A DNA stretch of 64,000 nucleotides, taken from contig JABWCF010000004.1 of NCBI GenBank assembly GCA_013359255.1, positions 62,001 through 126,000 of the forward strand. Reading direction: 5' to 3'. Shown one piece after another: positions 14,903-22,514 of this stretch. The position numbers were made by a program, and so were the translations under genes. A model generated the notes under the pieces. That model was not told the origin of the DNA, did not search any database, and worked only from the letters and a program-made list of their open reading frames with translations. The number at the start of each line of letters is the position of its first letter. The first letter of the stretch is position 1. The DNA comes from Flavobacteriales bacterium. Its GTDB lineage: Bacteria > Bacteroidota > Bacteroidia > Flavobacteriales_E > Vicingaceae.

Positions 14903-16999
14903 TTAAACCTTCACCCCTATTATACACACATCATCTACTTGTTCGTTTTTACCTTTCCAAGTTTCAAACACGGTATTTATTACGGATTCTTGTTCTTTAA
15001 GGGTTTTATGATTGATACTTAGCAGCAACTCTTTTAACTGAGCCGCTTTAAATTTCTTTCCATTCTCCCCACCAAATTGGTCGGCATACCCATCTGTAAA
15101 AATGTAAATAATATCGTTTTTACTAAGTGGAATTAACTGAGTTATAAAAGGACTTGGATTTTCTGTTTTACCAATAGGTTGCTTATCGGGTTTGTACTCT
15201 ATTAGTTTATTATTCCTTATTATCCAAAGCGGATTATTAGCACCCGCCCATTTTAATGTAATTTGGTTTTTACTAGATACGTCTAAATTACAAATAGAAA
15301 TATCCATTCCGTCTTTTACATCTTCATCGCTTTTAGAGAATTCTTGCACAACTAATTCTCTGGTTTTATCCAAAATTTTTCCAGGTTCTGTAATATTAAA
15401 TTCTCTTACACTTCTATTCAACGCATTGTTACAAACCACGCTTACCATGGCTCCTGGAACGCCATGCCCGGTACAATCAGCAGCTGCGTATAATACCGAA
15501 TTTTCATTTTTTTCAAACCAATAAAAATCTCCGGCCACAATGTCTTTGGGTTTGTATAAAATAAAACATTCAGGCAGTACCAATTCTACTGATTTTAGAG
15601 AGGGTAATATAGCACTTTGTATTCTTTTTGCATAATTAATGCTATCGGTAATACTTTTGTTTTTTTCTTCAATTAACCTGTTTTTATCGTTCAAAATTTT
15701 ATTTATTCTTTTACTCTTAATTTGTTGTGCTATAATTAAAAGAACAATACAAATAAGTAAAGCAGAAGCTCCTATAGAAAAAATAAATTTCTGTTTTTGT
15801 TTGTTCAATTCCAATTCACTGTTTTTTAATTTTATGTTGGTTAACTCTAACTCCCGCTCATTTTTCTCTTTATCCAATTTGTTTTTAAGAAGCTCTATTG
15901 TTTTCAGGTTTTCTGTATTAAAAAGCGAATCTTTTATAATAAGATAATTGTTTAAACTCTGCAAAGCCGATTGATAATCTTTTGTTTCTTTATAAATTTT
16001 ATAAAGAAGGTTGTGCGATTCTTTTTCTAATTCCAACAACGAAAATTCCTTAGCCATGCTAATTGCTTTTTCTAAAATAGGAATAGCCAATTGAAATTGT
16101 TTTTGTTTAAAATAAAAATTCCCTAAACGACCATACGATTCGGCAATTCCTCTTCGATTATTTAATGCCGTGCGTATCTCTAATGATTTGTTCAAATATT
16201 TAAATGCATTTTTATCATCTCCCATTGCATCATAGATATCAGCCAAACAACTATATGTTTCTCCAATAGCCGCTTTTTTATCCATTTTTACCCAAATTTC
16301 CATGGCTTCATTAGTCATTTCTAATGCTTTGTTATATTCTTTTTTATGAGTGTAGATAATGGCTGTATTTACCAATAACTTGGCATAGTTAGTTTTATTT
16401 ACATCTTTTTTATAAATTTCTATGGCGTACTTAAAATATTCTAAGGCTTTACTAGTATCTCCTTGCGAATTATAGATGATTGCAATATTATTATATGAAC
16501 CAGCAGCGTCATATTCTCTACCTATTTCCTCTGCAATTTTTATTGCTTTTGTGAGATATTTCATGGCTTCAGAGAAATTAGAGGTCTGACGATGTAAAAC
16601 TCCACACTGATTATATATCGAAGCCAATAAACTTGAATCGTTATACGCTTCCGCCTCTTTAATCACTTTCTCCATTTCTTTAAAAGCATTATCGGTTTCG
16701 CCCATATCAAAAATAGATACCACTCTTTTTAATTTTCCGAAAATAGCAAAATGCATATTGTTTATCTGATTTGCGTGAAAAATCGTTTTATTTGAATAAA
16801 ACAATTGCTTTTCGGCATTAATACCCCTGTAGAATTCAGATAATCTTGAATAACACATCATTTTTATACTGTCGGAATTCGATTGTTCGGCAACCCGCAA
16901 GATTGAGTCGGCCAGTTGGTAATTCTGCGAACATATCCGCTCCGAATAAAAAAATAAAATCAATAACAATAGAACTATACGGATACAGAATTTGCTCAT
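14903..16999 (-). CDS. Membrane TPR protein with cytoplasmic SpoIIE-type PP2C phosphatase
   Basis: 698 residues: signal peptide (about 1-24), about seven periplasmic TPR units (about 30-340) with recurrent YNNIAIIYNSQGDTSKALEY-type motifs, a coiled coil rich in Lys/Glu/Leu, one membrane span (FIFSIGASALLICIVLLIIA, about 400-420), a second short coiled coil with ITDSINYAKRIQSAILP, and a SpoIIE domain to the end. The SpoIIE part has KDIVAGDFYW, AAADCTGHGVPGAMVS, DGMDIS and FTDGYADQFGG, the metal-binding aspartates of this PPM family. The layout suggests that periplasmic protein contacts control dephosphorylation of a cytoplasmic target, for example an anti-sigma antagonist, but no such partner is next door. 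Confidence 0.92.
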   Translation of the reverse strand: MSKFCIRIVLLLLILFFYSERICSQNYQLADSILRVAEQSNSDSIKMMCYSRLSEFYRGINAEKQLFYSNKTIFHANQINNMHFAIFGKLKRVVSIFDMGETDNAFKEMEKVIKEAEAYNDSSLLASIYNQCGVLHRQTSNFSEAMKYLTKAIKIAEEIGREYDAAGSYNNIAIIYNSQGDTSKALEYFKYAIEIYKKDVNKTNYAKLLVNTAIIYTHKKEYNKALEMTNEAMEIWVKMDKKAAIGETYSCLADIYDAMGDDKNAFKYLNKSLEIRTALNNRRGIAESYGRLGNFYFKQKQFQLAIPILEKAISMAKEFSLLELEKESHNLLYKIYKETKDYQSALQSLNNYLIIKDSLFNTENLKTIELLKNKLDKEKNERELELTNIKLKNSELELNKQKQKFIFSIGASALLICIVLLIIAQQIKSKRINKILNDKNRLIEEKNKSITDSINYAKRIQSAILPSLKSVELVLPECFILYKPKDIVAGDFYWFEKNENSVLYAAADCTGHGVPGAMVSVVCNNALNRSVREFNITEPGKILDKTRELVVQEFSKSDEDVKDGMDISICNLDVSSKNQITLKWAGANNPLWIIRNNKLIEYKPDKQPIGKTENPSPFITQLIPLSKNDIIYIFTDGYADQFGGENGKKFKAAQLKELLLSINHKTLKEQESVINTVFETWKGKNEQVDDVCIIGVKV

Positions 17000-17068: not shown

Positions 17069-17071
17069 GCC

Positions 17072-17150
17072 ACACTTTAGGGGTGTTTGCAAAAGCAGAC
17101 TGAGAGAAACCCTTTTACCTGATGCCGGTAATGCGGACGAAGGGAAAAGT
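17072..17150 (+). ncRNA. TPP riboswitch 1 (THI element)
   Basis: Carries the conserved THI-box blocks in order: GGGGTG (17080-17085), gcagaCTGAGAgaaACCC (17095-17111), acCTGATgccggTAATGC (17117-17134) and gacgaAGGGA (17136-17145). P1 can be formed by acttt (17074-17078) with aaagt (17146-17150). Downstream, cacccct (17173-17179) is complementary to aggggtg (17079-17085) and lies 16 bp before the start codon, so it may be the expression platform. It heads the 82-residue protein / PnuT / kinase operon. Confidence 0.93.
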
Positions 17151-17194
17151 AAATTCTTCTTCTCTTTTTTTGCACCCCTATAAAATTTTATTCC

Positions 17195-17443
17195 ATGAAA
17201 ACGACTATTGAAATTAGCATGTATCCGCTCAATGCCGAGTACATTCCCATTATCTCTGAATTTATTGAAAGACTAAATATATACCAAAATATAAAAATAA
17301 AAACCAATGCCACCAGCACACAAATAGTGGGCGAATATGATGAGGTAATGGATTTATTGAAAAAAGAAATTAAATTATCGTTTAAAAAACACGGTAAAGC
17401 TATTATGGTAATGAAAGTGCTAAATGGTGAACTGGATATTTAA
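17195..17443 (+). CDS. Small YkoF/MTH1187-like putative thiamine-binding protein
   Basis: 82 residues, with no signal peptide. The sequence ISMYPLNAEYIPIISEFIER ... TNATSTQIVGEYDEVMDLL resembles the ferredoxin-like thiamine-binding/MTH1187 (DUF77, COG0011) domain, including the Y-P-L, STQI and GEYDEVM landmarks. In Bacillus, YkoF of this superfamily binds thiamine and works with a HMP/thiamine transporter. It is the first gene after a TPP riboswitch and overlaps the PnuT gene by 20 bp, which supports a thiamine-related role. Whether it binds thiamine or a precursor, and why a cytoplasmic binder is needed, is not known from sequence. Confidence 0.75.
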   Translation: MKTTIEISMYPLNAEYIPIISEFIERLNIYQNIKIKTNATSTQIVGEYDEVMDLLKKEIKLSFKKHGKAIMVMKVLNGELDI

Positions 17444-18017
17444 CAATGCCTCTCTCCTTCTAGAAATAATGGCCGTAATTTTTGGAATTCTTTATGTTAT
17501 TCTTGCAGCACGCTTAAATATTTACTGTTGGATTTTTGGCATTATTGGTTCATTAATCAGTATTTACATTTTTATATTTTATGCAAAGCTCTATTCAGAA
17601 GCCCTTCTTTATCTGTTTTACGTTATTGCCGGAGTTTACGGCTGGATAAACTGGGCTAATAAAAAAAAGAACATATCGGAAGTATACTCAGACTCTGTTC
17701 CTAAAAATCTTCTTATTATTTTGGGTGGAATAATTTTTTCTTTAATTCTTTACAAGGTAATAACCTACTTTTTTCATGACGCACAAAAACCCCTTATAGA
17801 TTCGTTTACAACGGTATTTAGCATTATTGCCACCTATTTAACCGCAAAAAAACGGATAGAAAACTGGTTATACTGGATAGCAATTGATGCCCTTACCACT
17901 TATCTCTATTATTCAAGAGAATTAGAAATTTATGCCCTTTTAATGCTCTGCTATACATTAATGGCTGCCTATGGATTTATGAAATGGAAAAAACTAAAAG
18001 TAATTAAGGTTGTTTAA
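17424..18017 (+). CDS. pnuT: PnuC-family transporter, probable thiamine importer PnuT
   Basis: 197 residues with seven or so hydrophobic spans and PnuC landmarks: a Y-x-x-x-GVYGWINWANKK stretch and, near the C-terminus, NWLYWIAIDALTTYLYY. PnuC proteins take up nicotinamide riboside by facilitated diffusion driven by later phosphorylation. The subset under TPP riboswitch control in Bacteroidota is called PnuT and is assigned to thiamine. The riboswitch and its partner genes are the reason for the thiamine call here. It overlaps both neighbours (20 bp upstream, 8 bp downstream), which implies translational coupling. Confidence 0.88.
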   Translation: MVNWIFNNASLLLEIMAVIFGILYVILAARLNIYCWIFGIIGSLISIYIFIFYAKLYSEALLYLFYVIAGVYGWINWANKKKNISEVYSDSVPKNLLIILGGIIFSLILYKVITYFFHDAQKPLIDSFTTVFSIIATYLTAKKRIENWLYWIAIDALTTYLYYSRELEIYALLMLCYTLMAAYGFMKWKKLKVIKVV

Positions 18018-18528
18018 TAAAATTGTTATAACAGGGCCTGAATCAACAGGAAAATCTACGCTTTCAAAGGCTTTGGCCATACATTATAAAACATTATGGG
18101 TAAAGGAATATGCACGCGAATACCTTTCAACCTTATACAAACCATATACTTTTGAAGATGTAATAGAAATGGCTAAAATGCAACTTTTTTCTGAAAAAAA
18201 AATAAGTCATAAACCACCTCCGTTTATTTTTTTCGATACTGATTTAACTGTGTATAAAATTTGGATAGAAGAAAAATACCACACCGAGGTAGATTGGATT
18301 AATCAAGAGTTAAAAAATACCAGAGATAAACTCTACCTGCTTTGCAATATCGATTTGCCATGGTTTCCGGATCCTCTAAGAGAGCATCCCAATATTACCG
18401 ATAGGCAACGTATTTTTAGTAAATACATTGCCTTGTTGAATGAATACCAATTTAATTTTCACATTATAAGCGGAAAAGAAGATGAACGATTAAAAAAGTC
18501 AATTCAAATTATTTCAAATCAAAAATAA
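18010..18528 (+). CDS. NadR-like P-loop kinase, candidate thiamine-trapping kinase
   Basis: 172 residues resembling the ribosylnicotinamide-kinase domain of NadR without its adenylyltransferase or DNA-binding parts. Walker A is GPESTGKST (about 9-17). VKEYAREYL, FIFFDTDLTVYKIW and LCNIDLPWFPDPLREHP are the NadR-kinase counterparts. The start is a TTG that overlaps the PnuT stop by 8 bp, and no ATG exists before the P-loop. In a TPP-riboswitch operon with PnuT the natural substrate is thiamine: phosphorylation would trap the imported vitamin, as NadR traps nicotinamide riboside behind PnuC. This substrate is inference. Nicotinamide riboside kinase is the alternative. Confidence 0.82.
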   Translation: MFNKIVITGPESTGKSTLSKALAIHYKTLWVKEYAREYLSTLYKPYTFEDVIEMAKMQLFSEKKISHKPPPFIFFDTDLTVYKIWIEEKYHTEVDWINQELKNTRDKLYLLCNIDLPWFPDPLREHPNITDRQRIFSKYIALLNEYQFNFHIISGKEDERLKKSIQIISNQK

Positions 18529-18548: not shown

Positions 18549-18650
18549 TCACATAGGGGTGCTCTGTTAAAAGGGCTGAGATTATACCCGTTTTTTCTGT
18601 CTTATAACAGAAAAAGGAACCTGATCCAGATAATGCTGGCGTAGGGAGTT
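18549..18650 (+). ncRNA. TPP riboswitch 2 (THI element with extended P3a)
   Basis: Conserved blocks: aGGGGTGC (18555-18562), gggCTGAGAttatACCC (18573-18589), ggaacCTGATCCAGATAATGC (around 18616-18636) and tggcGTAGGGA (18637-18647). Between the CTGAGA and CTGAT blocks is an extra hairpin tttttctgt/acagaaaaa, the optional P3a arm of this class. P1 is weak. A short hairpin at 18663-18685 and a gcccct (18677-18682) able to pair with aggggt (18555-18560) precede the receptor start. Confidence 0.94.
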
Positions 18651-18708
18651 TAAAAGGAATAACCAAGCAAGTGTTTGCCCCTTGGCATTTGTCAAAAAAA
18701 ATAGTATC

Positions 18709-21150
18709 ATGAAAAAAATTACTTTTTTGACAGCAACATGGCTTCTTTCGTTTTACAGCTACTCTCAGTACAACCTTAGCGGTACAGTATTAGACTCACT
18801 CAATAAACCATTGGTTGGAGCAACCGTTAGAATTTTAAACAGTTTTAGAGGAATCGCAACAGACAATAATGGCTCATTCAAATTTACTAATTTAAAACAG
18901 CAAGAATACCTTATTGAAGCAAGTTTTATTGGATATGAAACGCAACAAAAACAAATTTCCAATCTTTCGGAAAATACTGAAATTCATTTTATACTACAGG
19001 AATCAAAAAATACTTTAGACGAATTAATTGTAACCGCCACCCGAGTAGAAGAAAATTCACCCATTGTACATACCAATATTTCGTATTCCGAAATTGAGAA
19101 AAACAACTTGGCTCAAGATGTTCCGGTATTACTTCAAAACTCTGTTTCTATGGTATCAACCAGCGATGCCGGTGCGGGTGTGGGTTATACTTCTTTCCGC
19201 CTGAGAGGTTCCGATGCCACCCGCATTAATGTTACCATTAACAGTATTCCTGTAAACGATGCCGAATCTCAAGGGGTGTGGTGGGTTAATATGCCCGATT
19301 TTATTTCAAGTACCGAAAACATACAAATTCAAAGAGGTGTTGGAGCCTCTACAAATGGAGCCGGAGCTTTTGGCGGAACCGTAAACCTGCAAACTACTAC
19401 ATTAAAAGAAAAAGCGTATGCAGAGATAGCCTCTTCGGCAGGTTCTTTTAATACTCAAAAATATACCTTTAAAACAGGCACAGGACTTATTAATAATCAT
19501 TTCACCTTCGATGCAAGAGCCTCTAAAATCAGTTCTGATGGCTATATAGACCGTGCCAGTTCCGATTTAAAAAGCTATTACCTATCGGCCGGATACTACG
19601 ATAAAAAAACTTCATTAAAAATTATTCAGTTTTCAGGAAAAGAAATTACTTATCAGGCGTGGTGGGGCACTCCGGAAAGCCGTATTAAAGGGAACCAAGA
19701 CGAAATGCTTACTCATGCCATGAACAATGGATTAGATTCTGCCGAAACAGAAAATCTCATAAACTCAGGCAGAACCTATAATTATTATCAATATAAAAAC
19801 GAAATAGACCACTACACTCAAGATCATTTTCAGTTACATTTTACACATCAGATTAATGAATATTTTTCGGCTAATGTTGCTTTGCATTACACATACGGAA
19901 GAGGTTATTATGAACAATACCGAAAAAAAGATGAATTCTCTAAGTACGCATTGCCCGATGTTGTTATAGGAAACGATACCATCAAATCAAGTGATTTTAT
20001 TAGAAGACGATGGCTCGATAACCATTTCTATGGTACGGTTTATAATATAAATTACAAAAACAATTTGCTTTCAATGACAGCAGGTGGAGGTTATAATATT
20101 TACGATGGAACTCATTTTGGAGAACTTATTTGGGCCGAATTTGCCAGCAATTCTAAACTAAACCAACGATATTACCAGAGCAACGCTTTAAAAACCGATT
20201 TAAATCACTTTTTAAAAATAGATTATTCCCTTACTGATAAATGGCTATTATACGCAGATATGCAGGTGAGAAATATCGCTTATAACACAAAGGGTTCCGA
20301 TAATGATTTAAGTCTGATTCATATTGATACCACTTTTGTTTTTATTAACCCAAAAGGAGGAATCAGTTTTCAGCCCAATAAAAAAATAAGAACTTATGCA
20401 TCAGTTAGCGTAGGAAACAGAGAGCCTGTTCGAAGCGATTTTATTGATAATCCAAAAAACAAACAACCTAAACACGAAACCCTTATCGACTATGAAGCAG
20501 GTTTGAATTTCAATGCCAAGAAAATTTCTTTGCAAACAAATTTTTATTTTATGGATTATAAAAACCAGCTGATACTTACCGGAGAGTTAAACGATGTAGG
20601 CACTCCTATTCGCAGCAATGTGAATTCGAGTTACAGGGCAGGTATTGAACTTTCGGGCAAAATACTACTAAGCAAAAAACTGAATATGAATTTTAATACG
20701 ACATTATCTCAAAATAAAATAAAAAAATTCACCGAAATTATCTACGACTACACTAACGGGTTTGATGTAGTTGAAAACATCTATTCCAACACTGATATTG
20801 CGTACTCGCCCAATATCATTGCCGCATTTGGCTTAGATTATTCTCCCATAAAATCTCTTACCTTGGCCATGCAGTCAAAATATGTAGGTAATCAATTTCT
20901 TGATAATACTTCGAACACAAAAAGAATATTAGCCCCTTATTACACCACCGATGCACGAATAACGTATCTACTTTACGCCAAAAAGGTAAAAGAGATTTCT
21001 GTATCGCTTATGGCTTATAATATTTTCAATGCACTCTACAGCAGCAACGGATACACTTTTAGTTATATTTATGGCGAATTAATTACTGAAAATTTTTACT
21101 ATCCACAGGCAGGAACAAACTTTATGGCAGGGATATCTGTAAAGTTTTAA
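18709..21150 (+). CDS. TonB-dependent outer-membrane receptor for thiamine (compounds)
   Basis: 813 residues: signal peptide (MKKITFLTATWLLSFYSYSQ), a carboxypeptidase-regulatory-like N-domain (YNLSGTVLDSLNKPLVGATV ... GIATDNNGSFKFTNL), a TonB plug (TLDELIVTATRVEENSPIV; FRLRGSDATRINVTINSIPVN) and a long barrel ending in an aromatic residue (AGISVKF), as beta-barrels usually do. The TPP riboswitch directly upstream argues that it imports thiamine, TPP or a precursor across the outer membrane, corresponding to the OMR1-type receptors of Bacteroidota thiamine regulons. An upstream in-frame TTG would add nine residues to the signal peptide, so the ATG is preferred. Confidence 0.9.
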   Translation: MKKITFLTATWLLSFYSYSQYNLSGTVLDSLNKPLVGATVRILNSFRGIATDNNGSFKFTNLKQQEYLIEASFIGYETQQKQISNLSENTEIHFILQESKNTLDELIVTATRVEENSPIVHTNISYSEIEKNNLAQDVPVLLQNSVSMVSTSDAGAGVGYTSFRLRGSDATRINVTINSIPVNDAESQGVWWVNMPDFISSTENIQIQRGVGASTNGAGAFGGTVNLQTTTLKEKAYAEIASSAGSFNTQKYTFKTGTGLINNHFTFDARASKISSDGYIDRASSDLKSYYLSAGYYDKKTSLKIIQFSGKEITYQAWWGTPESRIKGNQDEMLTHAMNNGLDSAETENLINSGRTYNYYQYKNEIDHYTQDHFQLHFTHQINEYFSANVALHYTYGRGYYEQYRKKDEFSKYALPDVVIGNDTIKSSDFIRRRWLDNHFYGTVYNINYKNNLLSMTAGGGYNIYDGTHFGELIWAEFASNSKLNQRYYQSNALKTDLNHFLKIDYSLTDKWLLYADMQVRNIAYNTKGSDNDLSLIHIDTTFVFINPKGGISFQPNKKIRTYASVSVGNREPVRSDFIDNPKNKQPKHETLIDYEAGLNFNAKKISLQTNFYFMDYKNQLILTGELNDVGTPIRSNVNSSYRAGIELSGKILLSKKLNMNFNTTLSQNKIKKFTEIIYDYTNGFDVVENIYSNTDIAYSPNIIAAFGLDYSPIKSLTLAMQSKYVGNQFLDNTSNTKRILAPYYTTDARITYLLYAKKVKEISVSLMAYNIFNALYSSNGYTFSYIYGELITENFYYPQAGTNFMAGISVKF

Positions 21151-21200: not shown

Positions 21201-22514
21201 TTGTATTTACTAAAAGAACGCATACCACACCTTACCATTCTGCTTACGGCAATTATACTCGTATTTGCATCATCTAATATTAATTGGGGTCGCCAACATT
21301 GGAAAAATATTATTAAAGCCGATGGAAAAGGTTACTATGCATGGCTTCCAGCATTTTTTATTTACAATGATTTGCATTTTGACTTTTTCAATCAAATAGA
21401 GAAAGAAAAGTACTTTAGCGAAGAACTTTATTACGATTACAGAGTAGTTGTAAATAATAAAACTACCAACAAATACTTTGTGGGAACCGCTCTATTGCAG
21501 GCTCCTTTTTTTCTTGTAGCCCATCTCATTTCTAATATTACCAACAACGATACTGATGGCTACTCTAAATGGTATGCTATTTTTATAAACATAGCAGCTA
21601 TATTTTACGCATTAGCCGGATTGCTATTTACCAATCAATTGCTCAAAACCTTTAGTATTAACAGCATTAACAGAGGTATTACCCTATTATTATTTTCATT
21701 TGCTACCAACCTCTTTTACTATGTAGTGGGCGAACCAGCCATGTCTCACATCTACTCTTTTGCCTGCATTAGTGCGTTTTTACACTATGCTTCTAAATTA
21801 AAAGAGGGTAAAAACGCCATGTATATTTTATCTGTTCTTTTAGCTCTTATTGTGCTAGTGAGGCCTGTAAATATAATTATAGTAGGTATTCTACCATTCT
21901 TTTTTTCTGGATTCAAAGATTTTTTTATTACCATCTTATCTCCTATAAAAAGGATTTTTCTTTCGGTCATTATTTTTATTGCAATAACAAGCACTCAGCC
22001 TTTGCTGTATTTTTATCAAACCGGCATGTTTTTTCCGGATACCTATCCAGGTGAACATTTTAATTTTTTAAATCCACACATTATTTCTTTTCTATTTAGT
22101 TTTAAAAAAGGTTTATTTCTGTACTCTCCTATTATCCTGATTAGTTTAATAGGAATTTATATAATATTCCATCAAAATAAATTTAAGGGGTTCTCTATAA
22201 TGTTTTTCATTTCCATTTTAATTTATGTATTGTCTTCGTGGTGGAACTGGTGGTATGGCGGAAGTTTTTCTGCCCGTGTTATCTTAGATTATTTAAGTGT
22301 GTTTATGCTTGTTTTTTCGGCAACTTTAGAAAACTCAAAAAAATCATTACGATATTCTCTAATAACATTTTCTGCATTTTGTCTTATTCTATGTCAAATA
22401 CAAACCTACCAGTACCGATACTATATAATACATTGGGAAAACATGAATTTAGAACTCTATTTGAAATCTATTCATTCTATTTTTTTTCTTAACTTTGACT
22501 TGTGCTTTTTATAA
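21201..22514 (+). CDS. Polytopic membrane protein, GT-C glycosyltransferase-like
   Basis: 437 residues with roughly ten hydrophobic spans. After the first span comes an acidic/aromatic loop with ADGKGYYAWLPAFFIYNDLH, reminiscent of the first periplasmic loop of lipid-dependent GT-C glycosyltransferases (PMT/ArnT-like). Another loop reads WWNWWYGGSFSARVI, found in many Bacteroidota relatives annotated only as 'hypothetical'. It starts with TTG, since the ATG 8 bp upstream is out of frame and soon hits a stop. Its 3' end overlaps the next gene by 13 bp and contains that gene's promoter box. Glycosyl transfer is inferred from fold likeness only. Confidence 0.7.
   Translation: MYLLKERIPHLTILLTAIILVFASSNINWGRQHWKNIIKADGKGYYAWLPAFFIYNDLHFDFFNQIEKEKYFSEELYYDYRVVVNNKTTNKYFVGTALLQAPFFLVAHLISNITNNDTDGYSKWYAIFINIAAIFYALAGLLFTNQLLKTFSINSINRGITLLLFSFATNLFYYVVGEPAMSHIYSFACISAFLHYASKLKEGKNAMYILSVLLALIVLVRPVNIIIVGILPFFFSGFKDFFITILSPIKRIFLSVIIFIAITSTQPLLYFYQTGMFFPDTYPGEHFNFLNPHIISFLFSFKKGLFLYSPIILISLIGIYIIFHQNKFKGFSIMFFISILIYVLSSWWNWWYGGSFSARVILDYLSVFMLVFSATLENSKKSLRYSLITFSAFCLILCQIQTYQYRYYIIHWENMNLELYLKSIHSIFFLNFDLCFL
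22490..22497 (+). promoter_or_regulatory. Promoter box TAACTTTG for the metal-efflux genes
   Basis: Exact TAnnTTTG match inside the last codons of the GT-C-like gene and only 4 bp before the GTG start at 22502, so the transcript would be almost leaderless. Confidence 0.45.

Follow-up and report, generated by a model that had tools for sequence, protein, structure and literature searches.

Gene content of the locus

In the 64,000-nucleotide stretch of Flavobacteriales DNA analyzed here (the window), a TPP riboswitch leads an operon that encodes a small Thiamine_BP/YkoF-like protein, a PnuT-type transporter and a stand-alone NadR-type kinase that is predicted to act on thiamine, and a second TPP riboswitch leads the gene of a TonB-dependent receptor that follows (Table 1). 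The operon described in an earlier note on this DNA is confirmed: aptamer 1 stands at its head, and the 5′ end of the kinase gene overlaps the 3′ end of the PF04973 transporter gene by 8 bases. Aptamer 2, the Thiamine_BP/YkoF-like gene and the receptor gene were absent from that note's finding. The Thiamine_BP/YkoF-like protein is probably a thiamine-binding accessory protein, judging from its two Pfam matches.

Table 1. Features of the locus and its immediate neighbors, in window coordinates
Feature	Coordinates	Strand	Evidence or remark
TPR-SpoIIE phosphatase protein (neighbor)	14903..16999	−	
TPP riboswitch aptamer 1, leader of the ThiBP-PnuT-kinase operon	17069..17162	+	Rfam RF00059, 64.6 bits
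Candidate expression platform, CACCCCT able to pair with aptamer 1 5′ strand AGGGGTG	17163..17194	+	Minimum-energy fold
Thiamine_BP/YkoF-like protein, 82 aa	17195..17443	+	PF01910, 29.4 bits (cut-off 24.9); PF07615, 26.3 (cut-off 21)
PnuT-type (PnuC-family) inner-membrane transporter, 197 aa	17424..18017	+	PF04973, 160 bits; groups with PnuT in tree
Predicted thiamine kinase, NadR-type P-loop, stand-alone, 172 aa	18010..18528	+	PF13521; pLDDT 96; NadR nearest fold
TPP riboswitch aptamer 2, enlarged P3, leader of receptor gene	18549..18664	+	RF00059, 46.5 bits, E 3.8e-8
TonB-dependent outer-membrane receptor, thiamine type (OMthi-like)	18682..21150	+	PF00593/PF07715/PF13715
437-aa protein (neighbor)	21201..22514		No Pfam match

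Aptamer 1 scores above and aptamer 2 below the RF00059 gathering score of 54.3, and aptamer 2 was recovered again in a genome-wide TPP riboswitch search. That search of the 2.92-Mb genome turned up no TPP riboswitch beyond these two, which lie on either side of the operon; their placement is therefore not chance. Receptors of the window type also stand behind TPP riboswitches in related genomes. Several relatives share an enlarged-P3 TPP riboswitch that scores under the Rfam cut-off, and riboswitches of this class will therefore escape automatic annotation. The minimum-energy fold of positions 17069–17210 adopts the alternative CACCCCT/AGGGGTG pairing (z −2.96), and the segment that directly follows aptamer 1 is a candidate expression platform whose predicted function comes from this folding.

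Family and predicted structure of the kinase

The kinase reading frame starts with TTG, and its 172-residue product contains the Walker A sequence GPESTGKST (residues 9–17), DTD (76–78) and WFPDPLREHP (118–127). It matches Pfam AAA_28 (PF13521) with 103.3 bits (cut-off 27) over profile positions 1–164 of 164, and it matches the NCBIfam NadR model TIGR01526 with 72.8 bits (cut-off 341) at profile positions 161–324, the kinase half only; the NMN adenylyltransferase part is therefore absent. Judged by that domain together with a family-level score the protein is not a NadR, and it is the stand-alone homologue of the NadR kinase that the earlier note had described. All clear relatives in a sequence search of solved structures are NadR proteins (best E 5e-7), and a scan of genome contigs gave a single near relative, 87% identical. 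That the kinase stands apart from the ThiK and ThiN families, as had also been proposed, agrees with the profile searches: TIGR01378 (thiamine pyrophosphokinase, TPK) gave no match at E up to 1, and the NCBIfam and Pfam scans reported no ThiK match, only AAA_28/NadR and other P-loop families. The stand-alone kinase family has no NCBIfam model of its own.

Structure prediction, one of the checks suggested at the outset, gave an AlphaFold2 model (mean pLDDT 96) whose nearest solved folds are NadR kinase domains, 8x7f_A (Z 21.6, rmsd 2.0 over 170 residues), 6gye (Z 20.5) and 1lw7 (Z 18.5), followed by thymidylate and deoxynucleoside kinases with Z of about 15 to 17. Since the closest folds all transfer a single phosphate, TMP is favored over TPP as the product by an argument from family.

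Phylogeny and residues that differ from NadR

A tree of 102 kinase domains, with E. coli NadR as the root, places 87 kinases, the window kinase among them, in one clade (SH-aLRT 99) with every NadR domain outside, and in a slower tree of 56 rows the core stand-alone clade, in which the window kinase sits apart from the NadR grouping, has support of 99/99. The earlier note had asked whether the copies linked to TPP riboswitches form one clade. The stand-alone kinases as a whole do form a clade separate from the NadR domains, but the TPP-linked copies by themselves do not; a division into one linked and one unlinked clade was rejected, as both kinds are interspersed within the stand-alone clade. 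In the transporter tree the partners of the kinase group with the partners of TPK, and the partners of NadR group with E. coli PnuC (support 99). The window transporter thus falls with PnuT, and E. coli PnuC and six NadR-linked PnuC proteins lie across that split.

Gly9, Glu11, Lys15, Asp76, Asp121 and Arg124 of the active site are common to the kinase and NadR. Residue 85 is Trp in 98% of the clade and Tyr or Phe in all NadR domains, and Tyr38, Tyr46, Glu62, Glu125 and Pro127 likewise differ from the NadR domains; Trp85 and the other differing residues may contact the substrate.

One locus has a different kind of stand-alone kinase. At L161:6043-6618 (G353) a 191-aa protein stands beside a TPP riboswitch and receptor, nests within the NadR kinase clade and carries NadR-type residues; it may mark an independent second recruitment of such a kinase to thiamine salvage.

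Loci of kinase homologues in related genomes

Are relatives of the kinase also tied to thiamine genes elsewhere? The comparison covered about 100 loci, most of them 12–13 kb long, with roughly one from each genus. In the majority a PnuC-family transporter gene lies immediately upstream of the kinase gene. Near the kinase, about 40 loci have a thiamine-type receptor as well as a TPP riboswitch, which nearly always heads the receptor gene. About half of the inspected loci have no TPP riboswitch within ~6 kb, so the TPP link is often indirect; among 45 genomes picked mostly for having no riboswitch near the kinase, 43 have one somewhere, most of them just one, and 26 of 30 such riboswitches checked directly precede a receptor gene of the window type. 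Our in-house TPP covariance model, with just 7 pairs, failed to detect at least one aptamer (L100/G198, recovered by Rfam), and the counts of TPP-linked loci are therefore lower bounds, to which a pattern scan for further TPP riboswitches made almost no additions. An absence of TPP riboswitches from the homologues of other genomes had been named in the earlier note as a result that would speak against thiamine; what was found is linkage, locally in ~40 of the ~100 loci and somewhere in the genome in 43 of 45.

True NadR loci have a different setting. Full NadR (NMNAT plus kinase) is present together with the stand-alone kinase in genomes G026, G044, G081, G161, G202, G335 and G361. A TPP riboswitch lies near none of the eight NadR loci inspected, six of which have a PnuC gene of their own immediately upstream.

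Three TPK loci (L207–L209) have the order TPP riboswitch, receptor, PnuT, TPK, the same as the OMthi-pnuT-tnr3 layout of Bacteroides described in PMC5613172, in which PnuT and OMthi serve thiamine acquisition by B. thetaiotaomicron. Because these loci share the receptor and PnuT with those of the kinase, TPK and the NadR-type kinase occupy an equivalent slot.

Several relatives of the kinase are parts of fusion proteins. A PnuT-type transporter and the kinase form one 392-aa protein at L122:5384-6562 (G259), and the kinase is joined to an aldose-epimerase-like domain at L160:5163-6608 and to a GNAT acetyltransferase-like domain at L125:6021-7007.

Thiamine pathway of the source genome and distribution across the class

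The source genome, whose completeness is listed as 100%, encodes ThiL (314.6 bits in a profile search). ThiE was not found by profile search, TIGR01378 had no match at E up to 1, no full NadR was found, and exactly one AAA_28 gene is present, that of the window kinase. Without ThiE thiamine phosphate cannot be made from its precursors, and without TPK imported thiamine cannot be pyrophosphorylated; another enzyme must therefore phosphorylate thiamine, and the window kinase is the only candidate for this missing activity within the TPP regulon. TPK was found in none of the 32 genomes sampled from the same order, and a kinase homologue in 27.

The same relation was examined in an even sample of 376 genomes from the class, each at least 95% complete, in which strong kinase matches were found in 227, TPK in 83, ThiE in 125 and ThiL in 372 (G226, G253, G352, G357, G365 and G030, with marginal kinase scores, were scored as being without it). 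The kinase and TPK are largely mutually exclusive: nine genomes have both, 218 the kinase only and 74 TPK only (Fisher p 2e-26). One or the other is present in 244 of 251 genomes without ThiE, compared with 57 of 125 that have it (p 1e-31). Related genomes are not independent, and the test was therefore repeated within families. In the 14 families that include some kinase-less genomes, ThiE or TPK is present in 32 of 35 kinase-less genomes and in 22 of 133 that bear the kinase; genomes that have none of the three number 7, and in 20,000 within-family permutations their number averaged 24 with a minimum of 16, so that 7 was never reached. The distribution relative to TPK and ThiE thus bears out the idea that the kinase replaces a known thiamine kinase.

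The co-occurrence of the kinase and ThiE in 40 genomes, notably of family f35, counts against the function proposed below. This family (for example, loci L135, L136, L162 and L167) is unlike the others in having the kinase in all 19 of its genomes and ThiE in 17. The overlap with TPK is smaller than it appears, as the kinase match of G221 is a bifunctional NadR, which leaves at most eight genomes with both. Seven of the nine come from a single genus, in which the kinase lies within a long reading frame, shown in one of these genomes to be a fusion with a DUF4301 domain, so that lineage may differ. There the kinase is fused to DUF4301 (L149:6269-8389 and L150:11163-13484, genomes G088 and G207; PF14134 at 670 bits in L149), a TPP riboswitch and receptor follow, and TPK is encoded elsewhere in the genome; the fusion suggests a thiamine-related role for DUF4301.

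Proposed function and alternatives

We conclude, with a probability of roughly 0.84, that the locus forms a complete system for thiamine salvage in which the NadR-type kinase phosphorylates imported thiamine to TMP for use by ThiL. The receptor would carry thiamine across the outer membrane, the small ThiBP-like protein may bind it, and the PnuT-type carrier would equilibrate it across the inner membrane; the kinase would then use ATP to convert thiamine to TMP and so trap it, ThiL would convert the trapped TMP to TPP, and TPP would close both riboswitches and turn the system off. Thiamine as the substrate, TMP as the product and trapping as the drive for uptake are the steps of this scheme that we infer. 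The kinase belongs to the NadR ribosylnicotinamide-kinase superfamily and would have changed its substrate, as PnuT, a relative of PnuC, has done; very probably, imported vitamin B1 is phosphorylated by this hitherto unnamed enzyme.

Could the enzyme instead make TPP in one step, by transferring pyrophosphate from ATP to thiamine as TPK does? It replaces TPK both in the operon and in the distribution, and ThiL, being almost universal and present also in TPK genomes that have no ThiE, does not by itself prove a TMP product; its presence was dropped as such a proof. However, the nearest folds (NadR, thymidylate kinase and deoxynucleoside kinases) are γ-phosphate transferases, the Walker A and DTD motifs are like those of NadR, a monophosphate kinase, and the retained ThiL would be idle in genomes without ThiE, so we regard a pyrophosphokinase as improbable. 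Less probable still are two readings in which thiamine is not the substrate. Action on a precursor or breakdown product such as HMP or hydroxyethylthiazole, imported by PnuT, would give an identical regulon, and TenI-like genes adjoin the kinase in some relatives, but the source genome, without ThiE, cannot join the two halves of thiamine, and across the class the kinase is found preferentially in genomes that lack ThiE. An ordinary nicotinamide riboside kinase, with a transporter for nicotinamide riboside and TPP riboswitches that are incidental, would explain the resemblance to the NadR and PnuC families and the many locally unlinked copies that adjoin PnuC-family genes only. We consider it very unlikely nonetheless: the kinase lies between the two TPP riboswitches found in the genome, true NadR is encoded at separate, riboswitch-free loci that mostly have their own PnuC, the kinase and transporter clades lie apart from NadR and its PnuC, and this reading does not predict a distribution that tracks TPK and ThiE.

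Relation to known systems

The window kinase can be compared with three known types of enzyme. With the NadR kinase domains of E. coli, H. influenzae and L. lactis it has in common the fold, Walker A, DTD, the D-x-L-R region and a PnuC-family partner; it differs in having no NMN adenylyltransferase part, in sharing about 20% identity, in Trp85 for Tyr/Phe, in its TPP-riboswitch control and in forming a separate clade. ThiK is the thiamine kinase of enterobacteria and belongs to the aminoglycoside-phosphotransferase family; the predicted reaction, thiamine + ATP to TMP, is the same, whereas the window kinase belongs to the P-loop AAA_28 superfamily. TPK (ThiN, tnr3) has the same predicted place in the pathway and, in some genomes, the same operon slot behind PnuT and OMthi (as in PMC5613172), but its sequence family is unrelated, the predicted product of the window kinase is TMP and not TPP, and the two are rarely in the same genome. 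The Bacteroides OMthi-pnuT-tnr3 system resembles the window in its TPP riboswitch, outer-membrane receptor and PnuT; it has TPK where the window has the NadR-type kinase, and the excerpted text of that paper (PMC5613172) does not mention a ThiBP-like gene.

It is likely, if somewhat less so than the assignment of the locus itself, that the kinase represents a third independent thiamine-phosphorylating family, derived from NadR and serving as the main thiamine kinase of most auxotrophs of the class, and that transporter and kinase both switched from nicotinamide riboside to thiamine, with the second recruitment perhaps visible at L161. The fold is known and the predicted vitamin substrate is what is new; our search of the openly licensed literature turned up no account of a NadR-like thiamine kinase, and an earlier prediction may exist elsewhere.

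Calls of vitamin B1 auxotrophy and salvage from genomes rest on the known enzymes, and with this unnamed kinase overlooked, genomes without ThiE or TPK now appear unable to use thiamine. The kinase is present in about 60% of the 376 genomes, and if the prediction is true it is through this enzyme that imported thiamine would become usable there. The transporter and the kinase that traps its substrate would, moreover, have shifted jointly from one vitamin, nicotinamide riboside, to another, thiamine, a clear example of such a move, and a small set of residues, Trp85 foremost, stands out as the candidate substrate switch.
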